Part shown: piece after piece, positions 12,260 through 31,090 of the stretch
Numbering within the stretch: the stretch's first letter is position 1
How the letters are laid out: each line of letters begins with the position of its first letter
Source of the DNA: Nocardioides sp.
Lineage (GTDB): Bacteria; Actinomycetota; Actinomycetes; Propionibacteriales; Nocardioidaceae
Assembly: GCA_025965125.1 (NCBI GenBank)
Contig: JAOPXM010000203.1
Location: 1 to 32,693, forward strand
Reading direction: 5' to 3'
DNA length: 32,693 nt
Translations under genes and position numbers: made by a program
The notes under the pieces: generated by a model
What the model saw: only the letters and a program-made list of their open reading frames with translations
Told to the model about the DNA's origin: nothing
Database searches by the model: none

Positions 12260-13777
12260 TCAGGCCGGCGTGGGGACGACGACTCCGTCGACCCTGCGGG
12301 GTATCCCGCACGGCTCGTCTCGCAGCTCGACAGGGAGGAGCGCCGTCGGAGCGTCCTGCCAGGCTCGGGGGCGCAGGAACCGGCGCACCGCGGTCGCCCC
12401 GACCGACGTGTGCAGAGAGTTGGAAGCCGGCCAGGCACCACCATGATGCTGGGCCCACGAGACGGCCACCCCGGTGGGGAACCCGTTGTACACGATGCGC
12501 CCCGCCGCCTCTTCGAGGACCTCGCGGAGCGCACCGTCGACGGCTCCTTCGTCAGAGCCCGTGTGGAGGGTCGCCGTCAATGAGGGGGGCACCCGCGCGA
12601 GGACGGGCAGCAGGTCCGCGACGTCGTCGTAGCGCACCACCATCGAGACCGGGCCGAAGCACTCCTCGAACATCGAGTCGATGAGGTCCTGACTGGACAC
12701 CTCGAGGAGGTGCGCCCGGGCGGACCGCCCGTCCGCGTCCCGCTGAGGGGTGGCCGCGACCTCACGCACGCCCAGGCATGACTTCAGGGAGGCAAGTTGG
12801 CGCTGGAACGCCTCGCCGATCTGGGCGTTCAGCATCACCCGGGACTGACCGGCTTCGATGACCGCGGCGGCCGACGCCACAAGGACGTCGCCGTCCGGTC
12901 CGGACGGGACGAACGCCAGACCCGGCTTGGTGCAGAACTGCCCGACTCCCAGGGTGAACGAGGCGGCGAGACCCTGTCCGACCTCCTCGGCTCGTTCGGC
13001 GGCGGCCGCGGCGGTGACGACCACCGGGTTGAGGCTGCCGAGCTCGCCGTAGAAGGGGATCGGCGCCGGACGGGCTTCGGCCAGTCGCATCAACGCCCGT
13101 CCGCCGCTCGGAGAGCCGGTGAACCCGACGGCCGAGATCTCAGGGTGCTGCACGAGCTGAGCCCCGGCCGCTCGACCGAAGACGATGCCGATGGTTCCCT
13201 CGGGGGCTCCGACAGCTGTGGCGGCCTCCGTCATGAGCGCGGCGCAGAGAAGAGCTGTCGCAGGGTGCGATTCGTGCGCCTTCACGATGACGGGGTTCCC
13301 CGCAGCCAACGCCGAGGCCGTGTCGCCGCCGGGAACCGAGAAGGCCAGCGGAAAGTTGCTCGCCCCGAACACCGCGGTGGGGCCGACAGGCACCAACATC
13401 CGCCGCAGATCCGGGCGTGGCCCCATGTCGGTCGGCCCGGCGTGGTCGATGACCACTTCCAGGAATCCGCCGTCGTCGACCACGTCGGCGAACATCCGCA
13501 GCTGGAAGCAGGTGCGCGTCAGCTCACCATTCAACCGGTCCGTGCCGAGAGCGGTCTCGGCGTCGGCCGTGGTCACGACCAGCTCGCGTCCGGACTCGAG
13601 GACGTCCGCCATGGCGCGCAGCAGGCCCGCACGCCAGGCTCGCCCGAGCGTTCGGATCGTTCGGTGGGCGGCCCGGGCACGCACACAGATCTCGTGCACC
13701 TCGTGGGCCGTGGTCTCCGGACCCACGACGAGCCGGACCTCGCCGGTCCGGGGATCGACACTCTCGACGTCCGGCAT
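12260..13777 (-). CDS. 2,5-dioxovalerate-type aldehyde dehydrogenase
   Basis: NAD(P)+-dependent aldehyde dehydrogenase, 505 residues. It is most like the alpha-ketoglutarate semialdehyde (2,5-dioxovalerate) dehydrogenase group, which oxidises the semialdehyde to 2-oxoglutarate at the end of sugar-acid and hydroxyproline pathways. The catalytic Cys282 lies in GVGQFCTKPG, a motif typical of this group, and the general base Glu245 in YGELGSLNP. FGASNFPLAFSVPGGD and the GFTGS coenzyme loop are present. ATG 13777 begins 2 nt after the stop of the HIT-like gene, so it is the last gene of the IclR-AKR-HIT operon. The exact aldehyde is inferred from family resemblance, not proven. Confidence 0.87.
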   Translation of the reverse strand: MPDVESVDPRTGEVRLVVGPETTAHEVHEICVRARAAHRTIRTLGRAWRAGLLRAMADVLESGRELVVTTADAETALGTDRLNGELTRTCFQLRMFADVVDDGGFLEVVIDHAGPTDMGPRPDLRRMLVPVGPTAVFGASNFPLAFSVPGGDTASALAAGNPVIVKAHESHPATALLCAALMTEAATAVGAPEGTIGIVFGRAAGAQLVQHPEISAVGFTGSPSGGRALMRLAEARPAPIPFYGELGSLNPVVVTAAAAAERAEEVGQGLAASFTLGVGQFCTKPGLAFVPSGPDGDVLVASAAAVIEAGQSRVMLNAQIGEAFQRQLASLKSCLGVREVAATPQRDADGRSARAHLLEVSSQDLIDSMFEECFGPVSMVVRYDDVADLLPVLARVPPSLTATLHTGSDEGAVDGALREVLEEAAGRIVYNGFPTGVAVSWAQHHGGAWPASNSLHTSVGATAVRRFLRPRAWQDAPTALLPVELRDEPCGIPRRVDGVVVPTPA

Positions 13778-13779
13778 GG

Positions 13780-14223
13780 CTAGCGCAGGGCTGTTCGCAG
13801 CTCGTCGGCGATCCGCAACGCCTCGGGTACGTCGATCATGTCCTTGCACGCGTCCATGTACGCGAGGCCACGCCCTTCCGGAGGAACCCACTTGGGCCGG
13901 GCGAGAATCGGGAAGTGCCAGTGCGGCCAGCGTTCGGACATCGCGACCTGGTAAACCCGATCCGGTGCCATCAGGTCGTTGATCGCGCCCGAGACCCGCC
14001 GGATCATGCCACCGAGCGACTTGGCCTCGACATCGTTCAGGTTGAAGGGGCCTTCGACGTGCCGACGCACGGTCACGATCAGCCAGCCCGGCACCTCGAA
14101 TCCCGGAAGCACCCCTCCGAGCCAGTGCTCCTCCTCGAAGACCCAGCCCGACTCGGGGCCGTTCGACTCCACGAGCGAACACATCAAGCACTCCGGCAGC
14201 TCGTTTGCAGCTTTCTCGTCCAT
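13780..14223 (-). CDS. HIT-like protein with an altered histidine triad
   Basis: Small protein (147 residues) resembling HIT-fold nucleotide hydrolases and transferases. An N-terminal CxxC pair (Cys12, Cys15) and a beta-sheet region (FEVPGWLIVTVRRHVEGPF) lead to PHWHFPI at residues 100-106. In this motif the first two histidines (His101, His103) fit the H-x-H-x-H pattern, but the third is Pro105. The middle His, nucleophilic in HIT enzymes, is kept. Start ATG 14223 has AAAGG about 10 nt upstream. It sits 28 nt after the aldo-keto reductase gene and 2 nt before the aldehyde dehydrogenase gene, so it is clearly part of that operon. A role in a carbon-catabolic operon is unexplained. Confidence 0.75.
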   Translation of the reverse strand: MDEKAANELPECLMCSLVESNGPESGWVFEEEHWLGGVLPGFEVPGWLIVTVRRHVEGPFNLNDVEAKSLGGMIRRVSGAINDLMAPDRVYQVAMSERWPHWHFPILARPKWVPPEGRGLAYMDACKDMIDVPEALRIADELRTALR

Positions 14224-14251
14224 CCTTGTTGCACCTTTCTTGTCAGAATTG

Positions 14252-15229
14252 TCAGTACTGTCCCTCGACCGACCGCGGACGGTAGGGGCCCTCGAGGGCC
14301 GCCACCTCGTCGTCGGTGAGTGTCAAGGAGGTCGAGGCGACCGCCTCGGTGATGTGGTGCGGCTTGGTCGCGCCGATGACCGGAGCGGCCACCGAAGGCT
14401 TGGTGAACAGCCACGCGAGGGCCACCTGCGCACGACTCACGTCGTGGCGCGTCGCGAGGTCTCCGACGACGTCGAGGATCCCGTGCTCGACATCGTCGCG
14501 GTCATAGCGAGAGGCGATCGGGTCGGCCTGCCCGCGGTGGGTGTCGATCGACTCCGCGCGCGGCCGGGCGAGCCGACCGCGGGCCAGCGGGCTGTACGGG
14601 ATCACTCCGACGCCCATGTCCAGGCACTGGGGGAGCATCTCGCGCTCGTCCTCGCGATAGAGCAGGTTGTACTGGGGATGCATGGAGATGAACGGCGTCC
14701 AGTGGTTCTCGGCGGCGACGCGCTGGGCCTTGGCGAACTGCCAGGCGGCCATGCTGGAGGCCCCGAGGTAACGGACCTTGCCGGAGCGCACGCAGTCGTT
14801 CAACGCCTCCATCGTCTCCTCGATGGGAGTGTCGTTGTCCCACCGGTGGATCTGGTAGAGGTCGATGTGGTCCATTCCCAGCCGCCGAAGTGACGCGTCG
14901 ACGCCGTCCATGATGTGTGATCGGGACAGCCCGCCCTCGTTCGGTCCGCTGCCCATGGCGCCCTGGACCTTGGTGGCGAGGACGTAGTCGTCCCGCTTCG
15001 AGAAGACCTTCCGCAGCAGCTGCCCGGTGACCTGCTCGCTGACTCCCGTGGAGTAGACGTCGGCGGTGTCGAAGAACGTGATCCCGGCGTCCGCGGCCGC
15101 CCGGACGAACGGCTCGGCCTCGTCCTGCGGAAGCACCCAGTCGATCCAGGCCGGGTCGCCGTAGCTCATCATGCCCAGGCAGACCTGGGACACCTTCAAT
15201 CCACTCGCGCCGAGTCGGACGTACTTCAT
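14252..15229 (-). CDS. Aldo/keto reductase
   Basis: NADPH-dependent oxidoreductase of the aldo-keto reductase superfamily, 325 residues. It is closest in appearance to the AKR11/YajO-like branch that acts on aldehydes and sugars. The catalytic tetrad is present: Asp54 and Tyr59 in FFDTADVY, Lys87 in LATK, and His128 in DLYQIH. Near the C-terminus, APVIGATKPHH matches the cofactor phosphate-binding loop. ATG 15229 has a good GGAGGAAC site. The gene is 25 nt after the IclR gene on the same strand, so it is probably regulated by that protein. It may reduce an aldehyde or ketone intermediate of the pathway encoded around it. Confidence 0.93.
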   Translation of the reverse strand: MKYVRLGASGLKVSQVCLGMMSYGDPAWIDWVLPQDEAEPFVRAAADAGITFFDTADVYSTGVSEQVTGQLLRKVFSKRDDYVLATKVQGAMGSGPNEGGLSRSHIMDGVDASLRRLGMDHIDLYQIHRWDNDTPIEETMEALNDCVRSGKVRYLGASSMAAWQFAKAQRVAAENHWTPFISMHPQYNLLYREDEREMLPQCLDMGVGVIPYSPLARGRLARPRAESIDTHRGQADPIASRYDRDDVEHGILDVVGDLATRHDVSRAQVALAWLFTKPSVAAPVIGATKPHHITEAVASTSLTLTDDEVAALEGPYRPRSVEGQY

Positions 15230-15254
15230 TGTTCCTCCATGATCTGGTCGTGGG

Positions 15255-16085
15255 TCATCGCGTTTCCTGGCCGGTGAGTAGCTGCGTGATCTCGTCGGCG
15301 GCTGCCCGCACGGAACGTCCCAATGCCTCGATGTGCCGGGTGGCGCGGTCCTGCTTGATGCCCGTGGCGCTCACCGCGCCGACCGGCTCCGGCCCGAACC
15401 GATAGAACGCGGCGCCGAGGCAGAAGACCCCGGGATCGTCCTCTTCGTCGTCGACCGCGAACCCACGCTGCCGCGTGACCTCGAGGTCCGCGGTCAGGTC
15501 GGCGAGCGAGGTGATCGACTTCGCCGTGCGCGCTGGGAGGCCAGAGTCCTCGATGATCTGCTGCACGCGTTCGGCCGGCATGGACGCGAGCATCGCCTTG
15601 CCGGCGGAGCTGGTGTGCGGCAGCTCTCGAACCCCGAGCGGCGTGTGGAATCTGATCGCGCCGGGAGCGTCCACGCGGGCGATGAACATCGGATAGCCGT
15701 TGTCATTGACAGCCGCCCGGCTGGTCAGTCCGGTCTCCTGGCTCAGCTTCACCAGGACGGGACGACAGATGTCGCTCAACGGGATCGCACTCAGGGCGTG
15801 GTCGCCCAACCGGACCAGGGTCATCCCCAGCTGGTAGCGCGGTGGCTGCCCGACGCTCTGCAGGTAGCCGTGGTCGACCAAGGTGCGAGCCAACGCGTAG
15901 GTGGAGCTCTTCGAGAGGCCCATCGAGGCCGTCAGCTCGGCCAGCGACATGCCGGCTGGAGGTCCCGAGACGACATGGTCGATCAGGTGCAGGGCGTGCG
16001 CGACGCTGCCCACGGTGTACGAGCGCCCGGACGTCGTGTCCTTGGGCGCGGCCTTTGGTGAACCTGCCGGTTCCCTGTCAGCCAT
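15255..16085 (-). CDS. IclR-family transcriptional regulator
   Basis: Regulator of 276 residues. An N-terminal winged helix-turn-helix (about 25-85; MSLAELTASMGLSKSSTYAL is its core) follows a flexible tail. The C-terminal IclR effector-binding domain contains the usual LPHTSSAGKAMLA segment, the AVDDEEDDPGVFCLGAAF region and VGAVSATGI. IclR proteins generally sense small acids and control a neighbouring catabolic operon. The gene heads a minus-strand operon with an aldo-keto reductase, HIT-like protein and aldehyde dehydrogenase. It is divergent from the U32-like/ABC transporter operon across a 375-bp region carrying two copies of a 17-bp palindromic motif, which is its likely binding site. 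Confidence 0.93.
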   Translation of the reverse strand: MADREPAGSPKAAPKDTTSGRSYTVGSVAHALHLIDHVVSGPPAGMSLAELTASMGLSKSSTYALARTLVDHGYLQSVGQPPRYQLGMTLVRLGDHALSAIPLSDICRPVLVKLSQETGLTSRAAVNDNGYPMFIARVDAPGAIRFHTPLGVRELPHTSSAGKAMLASMPAERVQQIIEDSGLPARTAKSITSLADLTADLEVTRQRGFAVDDEEDDPGVFCLGAAFYRFGPEPVGAVSATGIKQDRATRHIEALGRSVRAAADEITQLLTGQETR

Positions 16086-16156
16086 GTGGCTCCCCTCGAG
16101 GCCCAGGCGTCCCCGCGGGACGCACGTGATGAGTGGATGCGGTAGAGCCGATGAGC

Positions 16157-16173
16157 GTTCTGTAATACCGATT
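16157..16173 (+). promoter_or_regulatory. Operator-like motif, copy 1
   Basis: The sequence matches GTTCNGTANTACNGAAC except for the last two positions, and shares 15 identical bases with copy 2. Its centre is 80 bp upstream of the IclR gene. It is enclosed by a separate perfect inverted repeat, CCGATGA (16148-16154) and TCATCGG (16173-16179). A site for autoregulation by the IclR protein is the simplest reading. Confidence 0.6.
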
Positions 16174-16351
16174 CATCGGATGAGCCCGGACTGTAGCCCA
16201 GGAGCGACGTCCTGCGCCAGTGGTTGCCTCAGAGGCCCTTGTTTCCGGGTGTTGCTGCGAAGTTTCGCCAAGATTTCCTGGGTAAATCCCGCGTCGTCGC
16301 CATTGACACGATCTTCGGCCAATGCTTGCATTATCGGAGTTAACGAACAGT

Positions 16352-16368
16352 GTTCTGTAATACCGAAC
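16352..16368 (+). promoter_or_regulatory. Operator-like motif, copy 2
   Basis: This 17-bp motif fits GTTCNGTANTACNGAAC exactly and is palindromic except at its three N positions. It lies about 100 bp before the first gene of the rightward operon and shares 15 identical bases with copy 1, 195 bp away. The spacing and symmetry suit binding of an IclR dimer. Confidence 0.65.
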
Positions 16369-16460
16369 AATCCGATTCGAGAAGTTGGCCTTCGACATGG
16401 CGAGGGCCGACGTGGATCTCGGAGGTGAATGCGTATGGAATGGCAGGGAGATGATCGGTT

Positions 16461-17369
16461 GTGAAGGCTGACGAGGTTCTTCGAGCGGCGCTGCTCGCTG
16501 AGGAGGCAATGCCCCCGGACAGCGCCCAGAGATTCCCGGACGGCGCCCACTTCCGGATCGAGATTCCCTCTGTCGAAGGTCCCGCTGTCTTCGCGAGCGT
16601 CCTCAGGGAGGCCGAGGTCCGTGGAGTCGTCGTCAACCGCGTCTCTCAGGGGAGCGGCGCGATGCTGCTCGAGGAAGCAGAGCTGCGCGAGATGGCGAAG
16701 ATCGGCGCCGATCTCGGCGTCGAGGTGTCGCTGTTCGTCGGGCCGCGCGAGGAGTGGGGCCTCTACTCGGGAGGCGCGGGAGCTGGCACCGGCGGGATTC
16801 GCGGGCTCCGGCAGCTGCGGTACGCCGTGGAGGACGTTCTCCGTGCCGTCGAGTGCGGCATCCGAGGGTTTCTGATCGCCGACCTGGGCCTGCTCAACGT
16901 GCTCCGGACCGGCCAGCAGGTCGGCCAGATCCCGGACGACGTGGTCTGGAAGATCTCGGTCGTGCTGGCGCCGGCCAACCCGGCCACGATGGCGGTGCTC
17001 GATCGCGCGGGAGCCGGAACAGTCAATGTCCCCGGCAATCTGACCCTGGCCGAGCTGGCCGACATGCGGGCTGTCACCGACCTCCCGATCGACCTCTACA
17101 TCGAGTCACCGGACAACATGGGTGGCGTCGTCCGCGGTGAGCAGTTCGCCGACATCGCGGCGGTGTGCGCGCCGCTCTACGCGAAGTTCGGCCTGCGAAA
17201 CTCCCGCGGCCTCTACCCGTCCGGGCTGCACACCAGGGCCGCGGCGGAGGAGATCGGACGGGAGAAGGTCCGTCGAGCTCAGCTCGCGCTCGAGTGGGCC
17301 AGCCGCGACGGACGCGAGCTCATCCAGTCCGACTGGGGCGCACCCGGACTGGCCGTCCCACAACCGTAG
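16461..17369 (+). CDS. U32-like TIM-barrel protein of unknown function
   Basis: Protein of 302 residues, resembling proteins often labelled peptidase U32 family. Visible features are RFPDGAHFRIEIPSVEGP near residues 22-40, then VNRVSQGSGAMLL, VEVSLFVGPREEW, FLIADLG, GTVNVPGNLTLAEL and DLYIESPDNMGG. The alternating strand and helix pattern suits a TIM barrel. There is no signal peptide or membrane segment. Genuine protease activity is doubtful; an aldolase- or lyase-like role would fit the operon, but no function is proven. The start is GTG 16461 with weak upstream GGGAG and no better in-frame choice. It is the first gene of the transporter operon and is divergent from the IclR gene. Confidence 0.7.
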   Translation: MKADEVLRAALLAEEAMPPDSAQRFPDGAHFRIEIPSVEGPAVFASVLREAEVRGVVVNRVSQGSGAMLLEEAELREMAKIGADLGVEVSLFVGPREEWGLYSGGAGAGTGGIRGLRQLRYAVEDVLRAVECGIRGFLIADLGLLNVLRTGQQVGQIPDDVVWKISVVLAPANPATMAVLDRAGAGTVNVPGNLTLAELADMRAVTDLPIDLYIESPDNMGGVVRGEQFADIAAVCAPLYAKFGLRNSRGLYPSGLHTRAAAEEIGREKVRRAQLALEWASRDGRELIQSDWGAPGLAVPQP

Positions 17370-17413
17370 GCGACCGACCATGCACACGCAGCACACCCAC
17401 CGACCAGGGATTG

Positions 17414-17475: not shown

Positions 17476-19053
17476 ATGAGGGCTCACCACAGGATCAGTC
17501 ACCGGCTGAAGATCGGCATTGGCATCGTCGTGCTCGGCCTCATCAGTCTGGCCATCGCGGGATGTTCGAGCAGCCCATCCGGCAGCGGCGGCTCCGCCAG
17601 CAAGCTGGTGGTCGCCATTGCTGCGGATCCGCCCACGCTCGACGTGATGACCAGTACCCAGAACGTCACGCAACAGATCGGTTACAACATCTTCGAGGGT
17701 CTGTTTGCTCCGGACGCCAACTTCAAGCCGTCGCCGATGCTCGTGGACACCTACCACTACGACGAGGCGAGCAAGACCTACACGTTCAAGCTCCGCTCGG
17801 GTGTTCCGTTCCACAACGGTCACATCCTGGACTCCGCCGACGTCGTCGCTTCGCTCAACCGCTGGCTGAAGCTGTCGACGTACGCCCAGAGCATCGCCGG
17901 CGATGTCGTCAGCGTCACCGCGGCCGACAAGCTGACTGTCGAGATGAAGCTGAAGGAGGACTCGGCGCTCGTGCTGACGGCGCTGACCTTCCCGAACCAG
18001 CAGGCGGCGATCTACCCCGCTTCGGTGATCAAGGCCGCCGGCGACCAGCCCGTCACCCAGTTCATCGGCACCGGACCGTTCAAGTTCGACAGCCAGCAGG
18101 TGGGCGTGGGGACCAAGCTGTCGAGCTTCGCCGACTACAAGGCGCGCGACGACGCGCCGTCGGGGATGGCGGGCAAGCGCGTGGCCGACGTCGACCAGCT
18201 GGAGTTCAAGTCGATCCCCGAGGCGTCAGTGCGCCTGGACAACCTCACGACCGGCGCCGTCCAGATCGCTGACTCGCTGGACAGCGACATGTACGACCAG
18301 ATCAAGTCCAACCCGGACATCGTGCCCACCATCATCAAGCCGTACCAGTGGCCCACCGCCGTCTTCAACAAGGCACAGCCGCCGTTCGACGACGTGAGGG
18401 TGCGGCAAGCCTTCCTTGCCTCCCTCGACATGGGTCAGATCATGCAGGGCGCGTTCAGCTCCGACCAGTTCTACCGGCTCGACCCCAGCATCATGGCTGT
18501 CGAGTTCAAGCAATGGTGGTCGGACGCGGGCTCCCAGTACTACAACCACCCGGATCCCGAGCACGCCAAGCAGCTCCTTGCCGAGTCCGGGTACAACAAC
18601 GAGCCCATCGTGTGGCTGACCACACGGGACTACCCCTACATGTACACGATCGCCGAGACCGCGGCCCAGCAGCTCAAGGCCGTCGGGTTCAACATCAAGC
18701 TCGAGGTCGTGGACTTCGCGACCATCGGCACCCGACGCGCGGTCAAGACGGGCTGGAACATCTACAGCACGGCGCTCGGGGACACCGACCCGGGAAACTT
18801 CGCCTACTTGAGTGCCGCGGCTCCCGGCTGGTGGGTCGATCCGCACAAGGACGACCTGGTCCACCAGCTGAACACGACCATCGATCCGGCGGCCCGCAAG
18901 AAGATCTGGGACGAGATCCAGCTGTACTTCTGGCAGCAGGTGCCCCTGATCAAGTTCGCTGACGTCTTCTCGCTGGCCGCCACGGACAAGAGCGTGAGCG
19001 GGTACGTCCCGGCCCTGTTCCCGGTCTATTGGGGCGTGAGCGTCAACGGCTGA
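17476..19053 (+). CDS. Peptide/opine-type ABC transporter substrate-binding lipoprotein
   Basis: Extracellular solute-binding protein of family 5 (SBP_bac_5, as DppA/OppA), 525 residues. A signal peptide with a long hydrophobic stretch ends in a lipobox, LAIAGC, with Cys30 lipidated. It is followed by a Ser/Gly-rich linker. Family features include PPTLDVMTSTQNV, FKLRSGVPFHNGHILDSADV, and VRQAFLASLD in the second half. ATG 17476 has AGGAAGG upstream. The family binds peptides, opines, nickel and also sugars. Two permeases and a fused ATPase follow in the same direction. The ligand is likely the substrate of the hydrolases encoded downstream. Confidence 0.95.
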   Translation: MRAHHRISHRLKIGIGIVVLGLISLAIAGCSSSPSGSGGSASKLVVAIAADPPTLDVMTSTQNVTQQIGYNIFEGLFAPDANFKPSPMLVDTYHYDEASKTYTFKLRSGVPFHNGHILDSADVVASLNRWLKLSTYAQSIAGDVVSVTAADKLTVEMKLKEDSALVLTALTFPNQQAAIYPASVIKAAGDQPVTQFIGTGPFKFDSQQVGVGTKLSSFADYKARDDAPSGMAGKRVADVDQLEFKSIPEASVRLDNLTTGAVQIADSLDSDMYDQIKSNPDIVPTIIKPYQWPTAVFNKAQPPFDDVRVRQAFLASLDMGQIMQGAFSSDQFYRLDPSIMAVEFKQWWSDAGSQYYNHPDPEHAKQLLAESGYNNEPIVWLTTRDYPYMYTIAETAAQQLKAVGFNIKLEVVDFATIGTRRAVKTGWNIYSTALGDTDPGNFAYLSAAAPGWWVDPHKDDLVHQLNTTIDPAARKKIWDEIQLYFWQQVPLIKFADVFSLAATDKSVSGYVPALFPVYWGVSVNG

Positions 19054-19112: not shown

Positions 19113-19146
19113 AACGGCTGGAGAAGTGGAACTGGGAGAGGAAACT

Positions 19147-20040
19147 ATGTCCGGGGAACTCGAGAGCGGCGTGGCATTCGAGCCGCTGTCCGATCCGGTG
19201 CTGGTCGGTCGACGAAGGCTGCGGCACGTCATCGCCGATCACCCGTCGATGATTGTCGCGGGACTGGCGCTGCTGATCATCGTCGCGGTCACCATCCTGG
19301 CACCGCTGCTCGCGCACGCCGCGCCGGACCAGATCGTCGTCACAGACCGCCTGAAGGGCCCGAGTGGGGCCCACCTGTTCGGCACCGACAACCTCGGCCG
19401 CGACATCCTGGCCCGCACCCTGTACGGCGGGCGAACCTCCCTGAAGATCGGCCTCGTCGTGGCCCTGCTCTCGGTCGGTGGCGGCACCGTGATCGGACTG
19501 CTCGTGGGCTTCTACGAGATCGTGGACATGATCGTGATGCGGCTCGTGGACGGGCTGATGGCGTTGCCCGCGCTGATCCTTGCCATCTCGATGATCGGCG
19601 TCCTCGGAGCCGGTATCACCACAGTCGTCATCTGCCTGAGCATCGTGTACGTCCCCCGCGTCGTCCGCGTCATCCGAGGCTCGGTGCTGATCATCCGCAA
19701 GTCGACCTTCGTCGACGACGAACGCGCGCTCGGCCAGTCCGAGCCGTACATCCTGTTCCGACATGTGCTCCCGCACTGCATGTCGCCCGTGATCGTGCAG
19801 GCGTCGTTCATCTTCTCCTACGCGATCCTGGCCGAGGCGGGCCTGAGCTTCCTGGGCGTCGGAATCCCGGTCGACGTGCCGAGCTGGGGCAACATCCTGA
19901 CCGACTCGCGCTCCTACCTGACGACGGCCTGGTGGATGTCAATCTTTCCCGGCCTGGCCATCGCCCTGACGGTGTTGAGCCTCAACGTGTTCGGGGACGG
20001 CCTGCGTGACCTTCTCGACCCAAGGTTGCAGGAGCGCTGA
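19147..20040 (+). CDS. ABC transporter permease, DppC-like
   Basis: Membrane permease of a peptide/opine importer, 297 residues. It has an N-terminal hydrophobic segment (SMIVAGLALLIIVAVTILAP) and the typical LFGTDNLGRDILARTLYGGRTSL motif of the DppC/OppC family, given by its ends LFGTD and GRTSL. About five further spans follow. The ATPase-docking EAA-type loop reads DDERALGQSEPYILFRHVLP. Near the C-terminus are AEAGLSFLGVGIP and PSWGNILTDSR. I preferred ATG 19147, preceded by GGGAGAGGA, to an upstream in-frame GTG at 19126. It is encoded before its DppB partner, the reverse of the common order. Confidence 0.94.
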   Translation: MSGELESGVAFEPLSDPVLVGRRRLRHVIADHPSMIVAGLALLIIVAVTILAPLLAHAAPDQIVVTDRLKGPSGAHLFGTDNLGRDILARTLYGGRTSLKIGLVVALLSVGGGTVIGLLVGFYEIVDMIVMRLVDGLMALPALILAISMIGVLGAGITTVVICLSIVYVPRVVRVIRGSVLIIRKSTFVDDERALGQSEPYILFRHVLPHCMSPVIVQASFIFSYAILAEAGLSFLGVGIPVDVPSWGNILTDSRSYLTTAWWMSIFPGLAIALTVLSLNVFGDGLRDLLDPRLQER

Positions 20041-20041
20041 C

Positions 20042-20986
20042 ATGGGCCACTACATGCTCAAGCGGCTGCTCCTGGTGCTGCCCACCCTGGTCGTCCCCGT
20101 CGTCCTGATCTTCACGCTGCTGAGGCTCGCTCCCGGTGATCCCGCTGTGGTGATGCTCGGCAACCAGGCGACCGCCGACCAGGTCGCCAAGCTGCGCGAG
20201 AGTCTTGGACTGGACCAGCCGATCTACGCCCAGTTCGGCGACTGGCTGGGAAGGCTGCTGCACCTGGACCTCGGCCACTCGATCTTCTTCCCGGAGCCCG
20301 TGCTGTCGACGATCTCCGACCACGGGACCGTGACGCTCCAGCTGACGCTCCTGTCGTTCGCGCTGGCCGTCGTGCTGGGAGTGGGCGGTGGCATGCTGGC
20401 CGCGCTGTACCGCAACCGGGCCGTGGACCGGATCGTCATGGTCCTCGCCATCGTCGGGGTGTCCCTGCCCGAGTTCTGGTTCGGTTTGAACCTGATCCTG
20501 ATCTTCGCGGTGCGCTTGCAGTGGTTCCCGGTGAGTGGCTACGTGCCGCTTTCCGAGGGGTTGCTGCCGTCAATGCGTTCGCTGGTGCTGCCCGCTGTGT
20601 GCCTGGGCATGATCCAGGCAGCCTTCATCGCCCGGCTGACCCGTTCGACTGTGCTTGACGTGCTGTCGGAGCCGTTCGTCACGACAGCTCGCTCCAAGGG
20701 GCTGCCGGAGCGGATCGTGGTTTTCAAGCACATCGCGCGCGGTGTGCTGGTGTCGATCCTGAGCACCATGGGCGTGATCCTCGGTCTGCTGCTCAGTGGC
20801 GCGATCGCCGTCGAGGTGGTCTTCGCGCTCCCCGGGCTCGGTCGGCTGCTGGTCGACTCGGTGGGGCGACGCGACTACCCCGTGATCCAGGGCGTCGTGC
20901 TGATCACGTCCCTGACGTTCGTCGCGGTCAACCTGCTCGTGGACTTCCTGTACGCGTTCGTCGACCCGAGGGTGCGGTACGAGTGA
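20042..20986 (+). CDS. ABC transporter permease, DppB-like
   Basis: Second membrane permease of the peptide/opine-type importer, 314 residues. The N-terminal membrane span ends in the family motif RLAPGDPAVVMLG. A typical DppB stretch, RNRAVDRIVMVLAIVGVSLPEFWFG (from RNRAV to EFWFG), follows near residue 125. The EAA-type loop TTARSKGLPERIVVFKHIAR and the FALPGLGRLLVDSV segment are intact. The start ATG 20042 lies 1 nt after the preceding stop, with CAGGAGC upstream; ATG 20054 is an alternative. The stop overlaps the ATPase start, so translation is coupled. Confidence 0.94.
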   Translation: MGHYMLKRLLLVLPTLVVPVVLIFTLLRLAPGDPAVVMLGNQATADQVAKLRESLGLDQPIYAQFGDWLGRLLHLDLGHSIFFPEPVLSTISDHGTVTLQLTLLSFALAVVLGVGGGMLAALYRNRAVDRIVMVLAIVGVSLPEFWFGLNLILIFAVRLQWFPVSGYVPLSEGLLPSMRSLVLPAVCLGMIQAAFIARLTRSTVLDVLSEPFVTTARSKGLPERIVVFKHIARGVLVSILSTMGVILGLLLSGAIAVEVVFALPGLGRLLVDSVGRRDYPVIQGVVLITSLTFVAVNLLVDFLYAFVDPRVRYE

Positions 20987-22836
20987 TGGGCGAGACAGTG
21001 GGATCCGAGACGACCGAGTCCGTGCTGGATGTCGAGAACCTGACGGTGACATTTCCGCGGCGCCGGGGAGACCTGACGGCGCTGACCGACGTGTCCTTCC
21101 ACGTCCGGCCGGGCGAGGCCGTCGGGCTGGTCGGCGAGTCCGGCTGCGGCAAGAGCCTGACCGCGTTGTCGGTCGCGGGCCTGTTGCCGTCGGACTGCCG
21201 GGTGGACGGATCGATCCGGCTTCGCGGCACCGAGCTCACCGCGCTCTCGAGGACCGAGCGCCGAGCCCTGGGTGGCAAGGAGATCGGCATGGTCTTCCAG
21301 GATCCGCTGTCCGCGCTGCACCCGGTGCTGTCCATCGGCGACCAGCTCACCGAGGGGCCGCGTCGGCACCTCGGGCTGTCCCGTCGGGCCGCACGCGACC
21401 GCGCTAGGGACATGCTCGACCGCGTGGGGATTCCCAGAACTCGAAACCTCCTCGACGAGTACGCGCACCAGCTCTCGGGTGGCATGCGCCAACGGGTGAT
21501 GCTGGCCATGGCGTTGATCTGCGAGCCACAGCTGGTGATCGCCGACGAGCCGACCACCGCGCTGGACGTCACCCTCCAGGCGCAGATCCTCGAGCTGCTG
21601 CGCACGACCACCATGGACGTCGGCGCCTCGCTCGTGCTGATCACGCACGACCTCGGGGTCGTCTCGCAGGCCTGCGACCGGATGGTGGTGATGTACGCCG
21701 GGCACGTGGTCGAGGCCGGCCGTGCCCGCACGGTGATCACCGAGCCCCGGCACCACTACACGGCAGGCCTGATGGGTGCCGTCCCGTTGCCCGGCGAACG
21801 TCGGCGACGGCTGCAGACCATCGCCGGGACGGTGCCCCAGCTCGACCGGATGCCGACCGGATGCAGGTTCGCCCCGCGCTGTGGATCCGCCGACGAGGCG
21901 TGCCGGACCGAGCCGAGGCTCGAGCCCACGGACGAGGCGACGCTGGTCAAGTGCTGGCATCCGCTGCCGCGAGGTCGAGCGGTGGCCGCGGTGCTCGCGG
22001 CCGAGGAGCGCCCCGCCGAGGGCGTGTCGGACGCCGTCCCCTCGGAGGGGCCACTGCTGTCGGTGCGGGGCCTGCGCCGCGAGTTCACGTCGGGACCGGC
22101 GCTGCGGCGCAAGGTCGTCGCGGCGGTCAAGGGCGTCGACTTCGACATCCAGCCCGGTGAGACGTTCGGCCTCGTGGGTGAGAGCGGCTCGGGGAAGTCG
22201 ACGGTCGCGCGCATGGTGTTGCGGCTGATCGGGGCCACCGATGGCCAGATCACCTTCGACGGCGGAGACCTGACGGCCCTGCGGGGACGGGCCCTGCGCC
22301 GGAAGCGCCGCGACTTCCAGATGGTCTCCCAGGACCCCTATGGAGCGCTCAACCCGCGGATGACCATCGGCCATCTCATGCTCGAGCCGTTCCGACTCCA
22401 CGAGCTCGGACCGGCCTCCACCTGGCGGGACCAGAGCGTCACCATGCTGGAGGAGGTGGGGCTCAACGCGAGCATGCTGCGGAGGTATCCGCACCAGCTC
22501 TCCGGCGGCCAACGTCAACGAGTCGCGATCGCCCGGGCCCTCGCCCCGAAGCCGAAGCTGATCGTCGCTGACGAGGCGGTCTCGGCGCTCGACGTGTCGG
22601 TCCAGGCGCAGGTGCTGAACATGATGAAGGACCTCCAGGACCGGTTCCAGGTGGCGTATCTCTTCATCTCGCACGACCTCAGCGTCATCGAGTTCATGAG
22701 TCACCAGATCGGCGTCATGCGTCATGGCGAGCTGGTCGAGGTCGGTTCCCCGACGGACATCTACCAGAACGCGCAGCATCAGTACACGCAGGAGCTGTTG
22801 TCCGCGATTCCCCCCGTTCCCTGGGCAACGCGCTAG
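20983..22836 (+). CDS. Fused double ATPase of the peptide-type ABC transporter
   Basis: One polypeptide of 617 residues joins DppD- and DppF-like ATPases that energise the import. The first half has Walker A GESGCGKS, signature LSGGMRQR and Walker B LVIADEPTTALD. It ends with the oligopeptide-transporter C-terminal extension containing Cys residues (CRFAPRCGSADEAC). A linker of about 40 residues leads to the second half with Walker A GESGSGKST, signature LSGGQRQR and Walker B LIVADEAVSALD. Both halves look catalytically complete. The start is GTG 20983, overlapping the permease stop, or ATG 20986 one codon later. Such fusions are known in this family. It completes the transporter. Confidence 0.95.
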   Translation: MMGETVGSETTESVLDVENLTVTFPRRRGDLTALTDVSFHVRPGEAVGLVGESGCGKSLTALSVAGLLPSDCRVDGSIRLRGTELTALSRTERRALGGKEIGMVFQDPLSALHPVLSIGDQLTEGPRRHLGLSRRAARDRARDMLDRVGIPRTRNLLDEYAHQLSGGMRQRVMLAMALICEPQLVIADEPTTALDVTLQAQILELLRTTTMDVGASLVLITHDLGVVSQACDRMVVMYAGHVVEAGRARTVITEPRHHYTAGLMGAVPLPGERRRRLQTIAGTVPQLDRMPTGCRFAPRCGSADEACRTEPRLEPTDEATLVKCWHPLPRGRAVAAVLAAEERPAEGVSDAVPSEGPLLSVRGLRREFTSGPALRRKVVAAVKGVDFDIQPGETFGLVGESGSGKSTVARMVLRLIGATDGQITFDGGDLTALRGRALRRKRRDFQMVSQDPYGALNPRMTIGHLMLEPFRLHELGPASTWRDQSVTMLEEVGLNASMLRRYPHQLSGGQRQRVAIARALAPKPKLIVADEAVSALDVSVQAQVLNMMKDLQDRFQVAYLFISHDLSVIEFMSHQIGVMRHGELVEVGSPTDIYQNAQHQYTQELLSAIPPVPWATR

Positions 22837-22872
22837 CCGCTCGGACCCCAACTAGGCAGGGAGTGTCAGGTC

Positions 22873-23883
22873 ATGGATGGAAGACAGGTCGTCACCGTTC
22901 TCGGACCCGTCGAGCCGGCGGATCTGGGGATCACGTTGTCGCACGACCACTTGTTGAGCGACATCTGGCCGATGACCCACGACTACGGGACCATCGTCGA
23001 CGACGAGGAGCTCGCGGGCGAGGAACTTCAGCTGTACGCCGATGCCGGAGGCGGCACCATCTGCGATCCGACGTGTGTCGGGCTCCGGAGGGACCCCGAG
23101 GCGCTGCAGCGGATCAGCACCCGGACCGGCGTCAAGGTCGTCATGGGCAGCGGCTGGTACCGCGAGGCGGTGTACCCGCCCGAGGTTGCCGAGCTCTCGG
23201 TTCGCGCGTTGGCGGCCCGCCTCGTCGTGGAGCTGACAACGGGTGTCGGCGACACCGGAATCCGGGCGGGCTTCATCGGTGAGATCGGAACCGAGCGGGA
23301 CGCGATCTCACCGGCCCAGGAGCGGGTCTTCAGGGCGGCCGCCCGGGCGCACCTGGTGACCGGCTGTCCGATCCTCACCCACACCACCCACTTCGGCGAG
23401 CTCGCCCTGGAGCAGCTGGAGCTCCTGGCTGAAGAAGGCGTGCACCCCTCGGACGTGATCGTGTCGCACCTCGGCGACCGCTACCGCGACACCGTGGTCG
23501 CCGCGGTCGCCCGGGCCGGTGCCTGGCTGAGCATCGACAACCTCGGATTCGTCGCGGGCTACGCACCCCTCGACGTTCGGGCGGACAACGTGCTCCAGCT
23601 GTGGCGAGACGGCTTCGGCGAACGGATCCTGCTGAGCAACGACATCTGCAACGTGGACCAGCTCGCGCGCTACGGCGGCCCCGGCTACGCCAACGTCATC
23701 GAGAGGTTCGTGCCCCTCCTGCGCGAGCGCGGCCTCGACGACGGCGAGATCGACCAGATGCTGCGCGCCAACCCTGCCACCGCGTTCGCCTACCCCGCCG
23801 CCGCGGCCGCTCGCCACGTTGCCTCAGTCGGTGTCGAGGAAGCGATCGCCCGCGTCAGCCTGCCCCGCAGCAAATTCATCTGA
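22873..23883 (+). CDS. Phosphotriesterase-related metallohydrolase
   Basis: Binuclear metal hydrolase of the phosphotriesterase family (amidohydrolase superfamily), 336 residues. Metal ligands occur in the family order: His24 and His26 in LSHDHLL, a bridging residue at Glu137 in IGEIGTE, His170 in ILTHTTH, His199 in VSHLGD, and Asp257 in LLSNDI. Glu at the bridging position, in place of carboxylated Lys, is the pattern of phosphotriesterase-homology proteins such as E. coli Php/YhfV. Lactonase or esterase activity is more likely than organophosphate hydrolysis. ATG 22873 has AGGGAG about 13 nt upstream. It lies in an operon with a SelA-like enzyme and a deacetylase, suggesting that it opens a lactone or ester of the imported substrate. 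Confidence 0.88.
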   Translation: MDGRQVVTVLGPVEPADLGITLSHDHLLSDIWPMTHDYGTIVDDEELAGEELQLYADAGGGTICDPTCVGLRRDPEALQRISTRTGVKVVMGSGWYREAVYPPEVAELSVRALAARLVVELTTGVGDTGIRAGFIGEIGTERDAISPAQERVFRAAARAHLVTGCPILTHTTHFGELALEQLELLAEEGVHPSDVIVSHLGDRYRDTVVAAVARAGAWLSIDNLGFVAGYAPLDVRADNVLQLWRDGFGERILLSNDICNVDQLARYGGPGYANVIERFVPLLRERGLDDGEIDQMLRANPATAFAYPAAAAARHVASVGVEEAIARVSLPRSKFI

Positions 23884-23898
23884 GCAACGAAGGACACC

Positions 23899-25089
23899 AT
23901 GACCCCCGAAGAGCTTCACGAACGCTACGACCTCGACCACGTCGTCAATGCGGTCGGCTACAACACCCGGCTCGGCAACGGCCGACTGCGCCCCGAGGTC
24001 CTCGATGCCATGAGCGCGGCGGCCCGCACCTATGTGCGCATGGACCAGCTCCAGGCGCGCGCGGGGGCGCGGATCGCCGAGCTGACCAACGCAGAAGCGG
24101 CGTACGTCGTCAACGGTGCGGCCGGTGGACTGGCACTGTCCGCGGCCGCGTGCCTCGCGGGGCTCGACCCGGTCCGCATGAACGCGCTCCCGCAGATTCT
24201 CGATGGCGGCAAGTCCACCATCGTGATCCACCGAGCCCACCGCTACGACTACGACCACGCACTGCGCCAGGCCGGCGCGACGCTGGTGGAGGTTGGCTTT
24301 CCCGACCTGACGTTCCCCTACGAGCTCGACGCCGCGATCGACGAGCGGACGGCCGCGGTGATGTTCCGGGCCGACGGCTCCGGGAACGTCCTCCCCCTGG
24401 CCGAGGTGATCGCGATCGCCCACGGCAAGGGTGTTCCCGTGATCGTCGACGCCGCGATGACGGTCCCGCCGGTCACCAACCTCACCACGTTCACCGACGC
24501 CGGTGCCGACCTGGTGATCTTCAGCGGTGGGAAGGCCATCGGCGGTCCCCCCGCGACCGGTTTCGTCGCCGGCCGGAGCGCCCTGGTCACCTCGATCGCG
24601 CTGCAGCACCAGGACATGGACGTCCGCAGCGACACGTGGCCGCAACGGGACCTCGTCGAGAGCGGTCTCGTCGTGGGCCCGCCCTACCAGGGCATCGGAC
24701 GGGCGATGAAGGTCGGCAAGGAGCAGGTCGCCGGCCTCCTCGCCGCCCTGGACTCCTACGTCGCCCGTGACCACGAGGCCGACCTCCGCACCTGGCTGGA
24801 ACGCGTCCACCGGATCCGCCAGGGGCTCGCGGAGAGCTGTCCTGGCGTGAGGACGACGGTCGATCCGGGTGGCACGGCGTCGAGCTACGTCCCGACCCTC
24901 AAGATCGAGTTCGGCAGCCGCGACCGCGCGGCCGCCGTGATGCGCGCGCTGCACGACGAGCGGCCGGCGGTGTTCATCGGCGAGCAGGAGCTGTGGCGCG
25001 GGAGCCTGGTCGTCGCCCCCACCAACCTGGAGGACGCCGAAGAGGGACAGCTGGTCGCGGCGCTGGCCAGGGTCGTGACCAGGGGGTGA
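23899..25089 (+). CDS. SelA-like PLP-dependent enzyme (D-glucosaminate-type ammonia-lyase family)
   Basis: Fold-type I PLP enzyme of the SelA-like/DgaE group, 396 residues. The PLP lysine is Lys212 in FSGGKAIGGPPATG, closely matching the SelA motif. VDAAMTVPP provides the cofactor-binding Asp, and YVVNGAAGGLALSAAACLAG the phosphate-binding loop. It lacks the tRNA-binding N-terminal extension of true selenocysteine synthase, and the window has no selD or selB. Characterised relatives remove ammonia from 2-amino sugar acids through beta-elimination. The start ATG 23899 has GAAGGA upstream, and the stop overlaps the deacetylase start by 4 nt. With RidA encoded two genes later, an enamine-producing lyase is likely; the substrate is unknown. 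Confidence 0.85.
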   Translation: MTPEELHERYDLDHVVNAVGYNTRLGNGRLRPEVLDAMSAAARTYVRMDQLQARAGARIAELTNAEAAYVVNGAAGGLALSAAACLAGLDPVRMNALPQILDGGKSTIVIHRAHRYDYDHALRQAGATLVEVGFPDLTFPYELDAAIDERTAAVMFRADGSGNVLPLAEVIAIAHGKGVPVIVDAAMTVPPVTNLTTFTDAGADLVIFSGGKAIGGPPATGFVAGRSALVTSIALQHQDMDVRSDTWPQRDLVESGLVVGPPYQGIGRAMKVGKEQVAGLLAALDSYVARDHEADLRTWLERVHRIRQGLAESCPGVRTTVDPGGTASSYVPTLKIEFGSRDRAAAVMRALHDERPAVFIGEQELWRGSLVVAPTNLEDAEEGQLVAALARVVTRG

Positions 25090-26264
25090 GCACGCAGGGC
25101 AGGACCCTGGTGTTCGGCGGGCTGGTCTACGACCCCGACGCCGGGAGTCGCAGGAACGCCGACATCGAGATCGCCGACGGGCGGATCGTGCGCGTCCAGC
25201 CGCGGCTGTCCCGTGAGGGGTACGACGCGCGCGTCGACGCAACCGGTCTCACCGTGTCCCCCGGGCTCGTCGACTTCCACACGCACGTCTTCGCCGGGCA
25301 GGACCTCGGCGTCGACCCGGATCTCTGGGGACCACAGAACGCGACGACGACGTTCGTCGACGCGGGCAGCGCGGGCGCCCACCTGTTCGGTGCCTTCCGA
25401 CGAGGAGTGATCGACTCGTCGGCGTCGCGGGTCGTCGCGTTCCTCAACATCTCCTCGATCGGGACGACGAGCATCCTGTTGAGCGGCGAGCTCCGGACGC
25501 TCGCCTACAGCGACGAGGACGCGTGTGTCGACTGTGTCGAGGCCAACCGCGACCGGATCGTGGGCATCAAGGTCCGCGCGTCCGGCGACGTGGCCGGCGA
25601 CAACGGAGCCACGGCGCTGCGGCGGGCCAGACGGGTCGCCGACCGGGTCGGACTGCCGTTGATGGTGCACGTCGGTCCGAAGCTGCCCGAGGTCGACGAC
25701 ATCCTCGGCGAGCTGCGCGCGGGCGACATCATGACGCACTGCTGCACGGGGCTGGGTGACAACGGGTTGGCGCTGAACGGCGCGTTGCGACCCAGCGCCC
25801 TGGACGCCCAGCAGCGCGGCGTTCACTTCGACGTCGGACACGGGATGGGCGGGTTCGACGTGACGGTGGCTCGATCGATGCTCGCCGCCGGCATCGTCCC
25901 GAGCACGATCAGCACCGACATCCACGCCTACTCGACGCACACGGTGCTGAGCCTTCCGAGCATCCTTTCGAAGTTCCTGGCGCTGGGTCTTTCGCTCGAG
26001 GACGTGCTGCACCGCGCGACCCTCGGCCCCGCACGGCTCGTCGGCCTCGACCGGGAGGGCATCGGCACCCTCCGCCCGGGAGCGCCAGGGGATCTGGCCC
26101 TCCTCCGATCGATCTCGGCACCGACGAACTTCGTCGACACCCGCGGACACGACTTCACAGGGACCGAGCGGCTGGAGACCGCCATGACCCTGCGGGCCGG
26201 TGCCGTGGTCTACAACGCTCAACCAGCAAGCCCGAACCCCACGACAGATGGAGCAACCCCATGA
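25086..26264 (+). CDS. COG3964-type amidohydrolase/deacetylase
   Basis: Metal-dependent amidohydrolase, 392 residues, of the group often misannotated as dihydroorotase or adenine deaminase. The metal site is complete: His65 and His67 in VDFHTHVF, bridging Lys162 in GIKVRASG, a His in LMVHVGP, a His in IMTHCCTG, and Asp278 in STDIHAYSTH. Some family members hydrolyse acetyl esters of 2-hydroxy acids. They are commonly encoded next to SelA-like enzymes, as here. GTG 25086 overlaps the previous stop, with AGGGG just upstream; a frame extending back to 24993 lies inside the SelA-like gene and is not needed. ATGA overlap couples it to ridA. Confidence 0.88.
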   Translation: MSTQGRTLVFGGLVYDPDAGSRRNADIEIADGRIVRVQPRLSREGYDARVDATGLTVSPGLVDFHTHVFAGQDLGVDPDLWGPQNATTTFVDAGSAGAHLFGAFRRGVIDSSASRVVAFLNISSIGTTSILLSGELRTLAYSDEDACVDCVEANRDRIVGIKVRASGDVAGDNGATALRRARRVADRVGLPLMVHVGPKLPEVDDILGELRAGDIMTHCCTGLGDNGLALNGALRPSALDAQQRGVHFDVGHGMGGFDVTVARSMLAAGIVPSTISTDIHAYSTHTVLSLPSILSKFLALGLSLEDVLHRATLGPARLVGLDREGIGTLRPGAPGDLALLRSISAPTNFVDTRGHDFTGTERLETAMTLRAGAVVYNAQPASPNPTTDGATP

Positions 26265-26644
26265 CCCGCACCGCCATCACCTCGCCCAACGCACCCGAGC
26301 CGGCTGGCCCCTACTCGCACGGGGTGGTCGCTGCGGGGATCGTCGCGGTGGCCGGTCAGGTAGGTATCGACCCCACCACCGGCAAGCTGGTCGGTGACGA
26401 CGTCACCAGCCAGACCCGGCAGGCGATCAAGAACCTCGAGGCCGTGCTGCTGGCCGCGGGATCCAGCCTCGACGACGTGATCCGGATCGGTGTCTTCCTC
26501 ACCGAGGTCGATGACTTCGCCGCGATGAACGAGGTGTACGCGCAGGCCGTTCCGGCCCCGCATCCCGCCCGCACGACCGTGTACGTCGGGCTGCCGCCGG
26601 GCTACGTCGTCGAGGTCGACGCGCTGGCGGTCGTCGCGCCCTGA
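26261..26644 (+). CDS. RidA-family enamine/imine deaminase
   Basis: Small trimeric YjgF/YER057c/UK114 protein, 127 residues. It hydrolyses reactive enamines and imines released by PLP enzymes to the corresponding keto acids. The conserved substrate-carboxylate Arg104 lies in HPARTTVYVG, followed by VEVDALAVV. The N-terminal GPYSHGV segment and VFLTEVDDFAAMNEVY are also family marks. Its ATG overlaps the deacetylase stop by 4 nt. As the last gene of the operon, it probably processes the product of the SelA-like enzyme. This supports a lyase rather than a transferase chemistry for that enzyme. Confidence 0.95.
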   Translation: MTRTAITSPNAPEPAGPYSHGVVAAGIVAVAGQVGIDPTTGKLVGDDVTSQTRQAIKNLEAVLLAAGSSLDDVIRIGVFLTEVDDFAAMNEVYAQAVPAPHPARTTVYVGLPPGYVVEVDALAVVAP

Positions 26645-31087: not shown

Positions 31088-31090
31088 ATC

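Follow-up and report, generated by a model that had tools for sequence, protein, structure and literature searches.

Two described systems come closest to the gene cluster considered here, a pair of divergent operons at positions 12260–26644 of a 32,693-nucleotide contig of Nocardioides sp. (Nocardioidaceae; GenBank assembly GCA_025965125.1, contig JAOPXM010000203.1; this whole stretch is hereafter called the window), and they are the only close prior art among the literature matches listed, which cover little of the subscription literature. The first is the ong pathway of Pseudoalteromonas prydzensis for oxidized chitin, comprising OngB, OngC, OngD and KdgK (PMC9537276; PMC12017989). OngB deacetylates N-acetyl-glucosaminate, OngC together with OngB yields 2-keto-3-deoxygluconate (KDG) and OngD, a member of the RidA family, is needed for growth (PMC9537276); from these experiments, a deacetylase, a pyridoxal 5'-phosphate (PLP)-dependent deaminase and a RidA-family protein jointly serve growth on an aldonic acid derived from N-acetylglucosamine (GlcNAc). 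The second is the GlcNAc route predicted for Natrarchaeobius, the chitinase clusters of which were read by their describers as encoding a deacetylase, a glucose dehydrogenase, a DgaE-like lyase, an IclR regulator and a RutC-family protein; strain AArcht7 is reported there to grow only on chitin and GlcNAc (PMC12343721). More distantly, in Weimberg-type pathways a dehydratase of the FAH or DHDPS family feeds a ketoglutarate-semialdehyde dehydrogenase (PMC9795676).

The genes of the window suggest, with a probability that we place at about 0.55, an inducible system that would catabolize, without phosphorylation, an amino sugar bearing an N-acetyl or other N-acyl group, or the lactone, aldonic or aldaric acid of such a sugar. 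Open reading frame (ORF), Pfam and NCBIfam calls confirmed two divergent operons sharing one regulatory region with an IclR-family regulator, as proposed in a first-pass annotation made from the sequence alone, with nine genes running rightward and four leftward (Table 1). The tight start–stop overlaps described for the rightward end were likewise borne out, the genes for the SelA-like lyase and the COG3964-type deacetylase, and those for the deacetylase and RidA, overlapping by 4 bases each. The second permease and the ATP-binding cassette (ABC) ATPase also overlap by 4 bases, and gaps of 36 and 15 bases separate the ATPase from the phosphotriesterase (PTE)-family gene and the latter from the lyase, respectively. 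In the leftward run the aldehyde dehydrogenase overlaps the gene for a 147-residue protein by 4 bases with the starts chosen here, that of the dehydrogenase having been selected by us within a longer ORF; the deacetylase is taken to start at an in-frame GTG at 25086, while its longest ORF begins at 24993. This grouping is probably more than chance, as gene sets with these functions turn up again in other phyla.

From this gene content we infer the following route, which keeps the earlier proposed order of import, hydrolysis or deacylation, PLP-dependent elimination and RidA action, an order that appears reasonable. The IclR protein would control both operons and the family-5 ABC importer would take the substrate in. 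The aldo-keto reductase may oxidize C1 to give a lactone, unless the sugar is already oxidized, and the PTE-family enzyme would open this lactone. The COG3964 amidohydrolase would then take off the N-acyl group, the SelA-like enzyme would eliminate water from the resulting 2-amino-3-hydroxy acid, and RidA would hydrolyse the released enamine or imine to ammonia and a 2-keto-3-deoxy sugar acid. The latter might be cleaved or dehydrated by the U32-like protein, and the resulting aldehyde, possibly 2,5-dioxovalerate, could be oxidized by the aldehyde dehydrogenase, in that case to 2-oxoglutarate. A far-reaching version, which we consider doubtful, would take an N-acetylated amino-uronate or amino-hexose all the way to 2-oxoglutarate by a previously undescribed non-phosphorylative route. 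The U32-like family, which is annotated as a peptidase and has no conserved cysteines, would then comprise dehydratases or aldolases of a new class acting on 2-keto-3-deoxy sugar acids, and the SelA-like protein would be an ammonia-lyase for unphosphorylated amino-sugar acids, offering a candidate sequence for D-glucosaminate dehydratase (EC 4.2.1.26), a long-known activity that is not known to have an agreed gene.

Table 1. Coordinates in the window of the two divergent gene runs and of the region between them.
Feature	Position	Strand	Match or basis
Aldehyde dehydrogenase; candidate alpha-ketoglutaric-semialdehyde (2,5-dioxovalerate) dehydrogenase	12260..13783	-	PF00171 (on longer ORF)
147-residue protein, no family assigned	13780..14223	-	contains one HWH
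Aldo-keto reductase, putative sugar C1 oxidoreductase	14252..15229	-	PF00248, 248 bits
IclR-family regulator	15255..16085	-	PF01614 and PF09339
Shared divergent regulatory region	16086..16460	.	gene positions
U32-like protein; candidate for the missing 2-keto-3-deoxy-sugar-acid step	16461..17369	+	PF01136, 19.6 bits, below cut-off
Family-5 solute-binding protein	17476..19053	+	PF00496, 210 bits
ABC permease 1	19126..20040	+	PF00528
ABC permease 2	20006..20986	+	PF00528 and PF19300
Fused double ABC ATPase, 617 residues	20983..22836	+	two ABC_tran stretches
PTE-family hydrolase, candidate sugar lactonase	22873..23883	+	PF02126, 214.4 bits
SelA/DgaE-like PLP lyase, candidate ammonia-lyase on an unphosphorylated 2-amino-3-hydroxy sugar acid	23899..25089	+	PF03841
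COG3964-type amidohydrolase/deacetylase	25086..26264	+	NF006689, 359 bits (ORF from 24993)
RidA enamine/imine deaminase	26261..26644	+	TIGR00004, 122.3 bits

The lyase exceeds the PF03841 cut-off (46.0 versus 22.8 bits) and retains the PLP lysine, which places it among the broad SelA-like/DgaE-related PLP lyases, while the DgaE cut-offs are not reached (168.9 and 200.1 bits, the latter for TIGR01437 with a cut-off of 385). In the characterized lyase DGL, His162 and His163 are strictly conserved and docking, which was manual and on which the roles of the arginines rest, puts the phosphate near Arg301, Arg332 and Arg346 (PMC9529869). The positions of the two histidines are occupied by Gly and Ser in the window lyase and those of the three arginines by Thr, Gly and Thr, the C-terminal alignment being weak and its single columns less sure. 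An unphosphorylated substrate is proposed because this phosphate-binding triad is lost and no kinase or phosphotransferase system (PTS) gene was recognized in the operon. The missing triad is a good but not decisive sign of such a substrate, and many other aligned lyases likewise lack the His pair or the Arg residues of DGL. Across an alignment of 105 lyases, the window protein included and at least two identical pairs among them, both histidines are kept in seven (L133, L205, L280, L281, L282, L284 and L286); the lyases of an Actinobacteria bacterium (L169) and of genome G206 are identical. The SelA tree pairs the window lyase with that of Dactylosporangium at a Shimodaira–Hasegawa-like approximate likelihood-ratio (SH-aLRT) support of 91, which is moderate evidence for this pairing as both sit on long branches. 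An insertion of about 24 residues past the PLP-lysine region (residues ~241–264) is a further feature of the window lyase, lacking in six aligned relatives.

Conserved catalytic positions are also present in the deacetylase and the PTE-family hydrolase of the proposed core. The COG3964-type protein scores just below the NF006689 cut-off of 371 bits, and its HxH, Lys, His, His and Asp align with the metal site of PDB entry 2ogj, residues that we take to be metal ligands. The PTE-family protein lies above the PF02126 cut-off of 22.4 bits and, compared with 3k2g, presents HxH, E, H, H and D at the positions presumed to bind metal; it does not reach the cut-off of the phospho-furanose lactonases (NF045706, 101.7 versus 630 bits). 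RidA surpasses its family cut-off of 106.25 bits. The importer is of the peptide/nickel type, with an SBP_bac_5 binding protein, two BPD permeases and two ATPase domains all found. Nickel- and staphylopine-specific transport were considered and rejected on the scores of the binding protein (NikA, NF045468, 104 versus 600 bits; CntA, 61 versus 800 bits). The 147-residue protein, labelled HIT-like in the first-pass annotation, matched neither a HIT domain nor any other Pfam family even at E <= 5, and that label is unconfirmed.

Recurrence of the core was assessed in the best 80 of 527 confirmed stretches that matched a seven-member SelA alignment in named genome contigs; several of these contigs are short and the counts refer to genes within the available stretch. 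A COG3964 gene lies near the lyase in 14 of the 80 loci (E <= 1e-10), a 15th (L179, an AHS match of 48 bits) having been dropped as the gene was assigned to the D-aminoacylase query. Five Rid queries (E <= 1e-5) detected a Rid gene in 11 of the loci; window-type permeases are present in ten, the binding protein in five and PTE in three. The COG3964 frequency is higher than the 1/40 found around U32-like genes (Fisher p 0.019), a comparison that is only indicative, given that taxa and thresholds differ and many contigs are short. Of the individual loci, that of Dactylosporangium sucinum (L165) matches best; there PTE (63% identity), a Gfo/Idh oxidoreductase, COG3964 (53%), SelA (44%), a metallo-beta-lactamase-fold gene and an IclR gene follow one another. 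In an acidobacterium (L142) the PTE gene (51%) overlaps that of SelA (44%) by 4 bases and COG3964 (38%) lies ~5 kb further, and in Actibacterium (L202) COG3964 (35%) and SelA (47%) are accompanied by a complete importer of the family-5 type, the binding protein of which is 32% identical. Among 13 hand-picked, and thus non-random, SelA regions read out of 256 matched plasmid records, annotation places the permeases and ATPases of an ABC importer beside SelA in nine, mostly with a binding protein, a Rid-family gene in nine and a COG3964-type gene in three.

Three alphaproteobacterial plasmids, from Phyllobacterium T1293, Martelella AD-3 and Sagittula MA-2, have an importer, COG3964, RidA, a divergent IclR gene and SelA annotated in one block; the last two blocks were compared with the window by annotation only. 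The Phyllobacterium block shares with the window a binding protein (36%, 309 bits), a 616-residue fused ATPase (43%), COG3964 (35%) and SelA (32%), and a nagA-type N-acetylglucosamine-6-phosphate deacetylase, a nagB-type glucosamine-6-phosphate deaminase and a ROK regulator are annotated close by. The lyases of these plasmid modules fall with DGL across a branch of support 99, apart from that of the window, which suggests that similar gene sets may have been put together more than once; this would strengthen the functional link between their members. The co-occurrence anticipated in the first-pass annotation was thus found in part, on these three plasmids and, for PTE, the SelA-like lyase and COG3964, in two genomes, and did not extend to the U32-like gene.

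Neighbouring genes favour an amino-sugar acid as the substrate. Examples come from haloarchaea: in Halorussus and Haladaptatus salinisoli the SelA gene stands with an ABC importer, an MR/MLE-family gene, a PIG-L deacetylase, glucose 1-dehydrogenase and Rid; in Natrononativus with GH20, Gfo/Idh, D-aminoacylase and FAH genes; and in Natronococcus with an ABC importer and two heparinase II/III-annotated genes, of which the one scanned matched Hepar_II_III_C (E 5.3e-7). The SelA protein of the haloarchaeal strain AArcht7 (L144) is 45% identical to that of the window, and relatives of PIG-L, IclR, Rid and glucose dehydrogenase are encoded in the same stretch. Within the class of the window genome, 12 of the 20 non-window COG3964 places were fetched, four with SelA and three with RidA in the stretch retrieved, and one locus (L253) contains SelA, COG3964, an SBP_bac_1 importer, MR/MLE, GH4, two BadF-type genes and IclR.

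Other observations weigh against this interpretation. In the majority of the 80 nearest lyase loci the other partners are missing, and a U32-like gene occurs in none; no other copy of the whole gene set appeared in the collections searched, in keeping with the initial remark that this exact set was not recognized. No glycoside hydrolase or sugar kinase was found inside the operon, and peptides, opines and nickel are also among the ligands of family-5 binding proteins. The Phyllobacterium module, with its DGL-side lyase, is probably not simply the same operon, its RidA (29%, E 0.008) and IclR (21%) not being close to those of the window. The idea that RidA compensates for the lost His163 was rejected, as a Rid gene is nearby in five of the seven lyases with the His pair versus 21 of the 98 without it. 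Two Rhizobium regions, read out of 139 records of this genus that matched the lyase, are uninformative on sugars; these plasmids (L282 and L284, with pRL11 of strain 3841 among them) encode a binding protein, permeases, Rid, a SelA-like protein and a long single ATPase gene, and their stretches contain no COG3964 gene. In a Mesorhizobium locus (L285), moreover, the SelA relative adjoins a dipeptide epimerase and an M81 peptidase.

This last neighbourhood bears on an alternative that we regard as unlikely, the catabolism of non-sugar 2-amino-3-hydroxy acids that are N-acylated or derived from peptides, of the D-serine or beta-hydroxy-amino-acid type, in which the importer would carry peptides, COG3964 would deacylate, the SelA-like enzyme would eliminate and RidA would finish the reaction. 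Consistent with it, most family-5 importers transport peptides, and serine-type compounds are substrates of the SelA fold; however, the informative neighbourhoods read are dominated by sugar-acid and amino-sugar genes, and such a pathway offers no obvious place for PTE, the aldo-keto reductase or the sugar-acid-linked aldehyde dehydrogenase and U32-like protein.

The U32-like protein and the aldehyde dehydrogenase are the less certain members of the proposed amino-sugar system. The former falls short of the peptidase U32 threshold (cut-off 22.4 bits) while all 20 aligned family members match PF01136 at E <= 1 (best 2.2e-9). In that 20-sequence alignment the mean column identity is 61%, Lys164 and Lys242 are invariant, and no cysteine occupies an invariant or near-invariant column; conserved iron–sulphur cysteines are a feature of UbiU and UbiV. 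No PDB relative was found by sequence or profile and no relative in viral contigs, and a single-sequence AlphaFold model reached a mean predicted local distance difference test (pLDDT) score of 36. A distant relative (25%) occurs on an Enterobacter plasmid (L226, 7914–8852) beside genes for an aminotransferase, an NAD(P) oxidoreductase, an M14 peptidase, an iron redox enzyme and MFS transporters. By a pathway-hole argument the U32-like protein is a candidate for the step past the lyase, because no 2-keto-3-deoxy-acid enzyme was recognized in the operon: IlvD, FAH, DHDPS-type and KDG-kinase proteins were all missing from the scanned genes of both runs. The aldehyde dehydrogenase, proposed earlier to be of the 2,5-dioxovalerate type, scores far below the curated alpha-ketoglutaric semialdehyde dehydrogenases (NF042993, 82.3 bits, cut-off 770; NF052305, 80.2 bits, cut-off 750) and is nearest to the solved structures 1eyy and 3v4c; a 2-oxoglutarate end product is nevertheless plausible from its relatives.

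Of 40 U32-like neighbourhoods, taken from the 55 non-window genomes with a match, 11 contain such a relative of the dehydrogenase at 44% identity or more. Three of these loci were scanned: L049 contains IlvD/EDD, a zinc-dependent dehydrogenase and an SBP_bac_1 protein; L070 contains a galactarate/altronate-dehydratase-type gene, a lactate-racemase-like gene (below cut-off) and an FAH-family gene overlapped by the aldehyde dehydrogenase relative; and L052 contains a Peripla_BP_4 protein, an SDR and a GntR regulator. Two of the three loci thus offer sugar-acid neighbours, and these surroundings suggest that the U32-like/aldehyde dehydrogenase part was recruited from sugar-acid pathways. The U32-like gene was rejected as a marker of the whole system, the 40 neighbourhoods having given no SelA, PTE, RidA or family-5 binding protein and a single COG3964. 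The same figures lend something to a mosaic, which we consider rather improbable, in which the importer, PTE, SelA, COG3964 and RidA cooperate while the U32-like protein and the leftward reductase, 147-residue protein and aldehyde dehydrogenase serve another sugar acid: the U32-like and aldehyde dehydrogenase genes co-occur without SelA, PTE or RidA, and the nearest U32-like relative (G265) has IclR (57%), IlvD, a zinc-dependent dehydrogenase and an SBP_bac_1 importer instead. Against such a division, the U32-like gene is the first of the same-direction run, the aldehyde dehydrogenase lies in the divergent operon with IclR, and in a second actinobacterial genome (L085, 14211–15763) U32-like and COG3964 relatives are directly adjacent. 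The claim of one single catabolic system is partly supported: parts of the core recur together elsewhere, and the U32-like and SelA genes show no linkage.

Quite improbable, finally, is the catabolism of a sugar–amino-acid conjugate (an opine or Amadori compound, agropinic-acid-like), its lactam or lactone opened by PTE and COG3964 before elimination, to which the lactone- and lactam-type hydrolases of the operon and the presence of AgaA (6hlx, which has an opine ligand) as third-best PDB relative of the binding protein would point, but 8vdx and 5u4o match better, no deglycase, opine oxidase or Amadori enzyme was recognized in the operon, and the COG3964/RidA/SelA module adjoins the nagA/nagB-type genes in Phyllobacterium.

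Regarding the predicted control by IclR, the best NCBIfam match of this regulator is BhcR (167.7 bits, under the cut-off of 350). The region 16086–16460 contains one 9-nucleotide direct repeat pair (TAACGAACA/TACCGAACA) and no inverted repeat was found in it; scans for sigma-70 promoters and terminators gave no match. The two nearest U32-like loci each have an ORF without a Pfam match, 378–390 residues in length (L049, 12665–13801; L050, 4088–5260), between their IclR and U32-like genes, where no gene is present in the window.

The assembly is 92% complete and consists of 257 contigs, of which the window is C20. The tetranucleotide correlation of the cluster to its own contigs averages 0.915, compared with 0.909–0.938 among own contigs longer than 9 kb, and that of its flanks within the window is 0.876–0.894, below this range; a same-genus stretch (0.925) and a same-order stretch (0.917) score as high as the cluster. 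These values do not distinguish horizontal acquisition from mis-binning of a contig that belongs to a related actinobacterium, and the gene identities are unaffected either way. The flanking gamma-glutamyltranspeptidase (57–70%) and UDP-glucose pyrophosphorylase (58–61%) have moderate same-genus matches in 30 genomes. With the window counted, the U32-like protein was found in 17 of the 58 relatives and in 40 of the 396 genomes from the phylum, and the search of 36 same-genus genomes gave no match; these 36 also lack close SelA relatives, their best match (E 3.4e-9) reflecting general PLP-fold similarity. The conservation in many actinomycetes that had been envisaged was not observed: COG3964 relatives (E <= 1e-40) were present in three of the 396 genomes from the phylum and in 20 of the 384 from the class, with the window counted, and in none of the 18 same-genus genomes listed, and the close PTE subfamily (E <= 1e-70) in one of 241 class genomes, the window being its sole carrier.

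Elsewhere in the window, a separate carbohydrate locus (1431–11133) encodes an SBP_bac_8 binding protein, a permease, a UDP-glucose pyrophosphorylase with a second genome copy on contig C112, a ROK regulator and an 845-residue ORF with alpha-galactosidase (Melibiase_2) and NPCBM-associated domains. An Amidohydro_2 gene (11340–12221) convergent to the leftward operon might conceivably be a further hydrolase of the system. Directly past the rightward operon (26759–28245) lie an AraC-type helix-turn-helix gene fused to a DinB_2 domain and a RibD_C gene, followed at 29189–32691 by gamma-glutamyltranspeptidase (best-scoring same-genus match 67%) and a diaminopimelate epimerase cut at the contig end.

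Amino sugars are abundant nitrogen-bearing carbon sources, and a module of importer, deacylase, SelA-like lyase and RidA found in several phyla without a named pathway would represent a gap in carbon and nitrogen cycling. Its characterization opens the way to a function for two misleadingly named families, the 'selenocysteine synthase-like' lyases and the cysteine-free 'U32 peptidases'.

Among the systems with which it can be compared, DGL (PDB 7lc0) is a characterized relative of the window lyase (profile E 6.2e-91) with the same conserved PLP lysine, but the window lyase remains below the DgaE cut-offs, lacks the His pair and Arg triad, belongs to a separate clade and stands in an operon without a recognized PTS or kinase gene. 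The Phyllobacterium, Martelella and Sagittula module, for which no name was found in the literature matches read, resembles the window in uniting importer, COG3964, RidA, divergent IclR and SelA-like genes, and differs in having no annotated PTE or U32-like gene, a lyase bearing both histidines on the DGL side and, in the case of Phyllobacterium, which was compared, a different RidA and IclR. Relatives of the window aldehyde dehydrogenase and U32-like protein sit with IlvD/EDD and FAH-family enzymes, as in the Weimberg-type pathways (PMC9795676), whereas IlvD, FAH and DHDPS-type dehydratases were not recognized in the window operons. The Natrarchaeobius cluster, which is probably the locus of L144, likewise groups a DgaE-like lyase, a deacetylase, a sugar dehydrogenase, IclR and a RutC-family gene; it has a CE14-type deacetylase, glucose dehydrogenase and chitinases where the window has COG3964, PTE and the reductase, and the route, a prediction by its describers, assumes a phosphorylated substrate, unlike the one proposed here (PMC12343721). 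The core parts of the window thus recur across phyla and are partly foreshadowed in print, while their exact combination was not found in the collections searched. As is proposed for the operons of the window, the ong cluster brings together a deacetylase, a PLP-dependent deaminase and a RidA-family protein, whose substrate is an N-acetyl amino-sugar acid that has not been phosphorylated beforehand. Its deacetylase OngB is, however, a D-aminoacylase-like subtype V amidohydrolase rather than of COG3964 type, OngC was annotated as a D-amino acid deaminase and is not SelA-like, an SSS symporter and a kinase are present in place of the family-5 ABC importer, PTE, U32-like protein and aldehyde dehydrogenase, and its regulator belongs to the MurR/RpiR family instead of IclR. 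The ong pathway shows the chemistry proposed here as carried out by other enzyme families.

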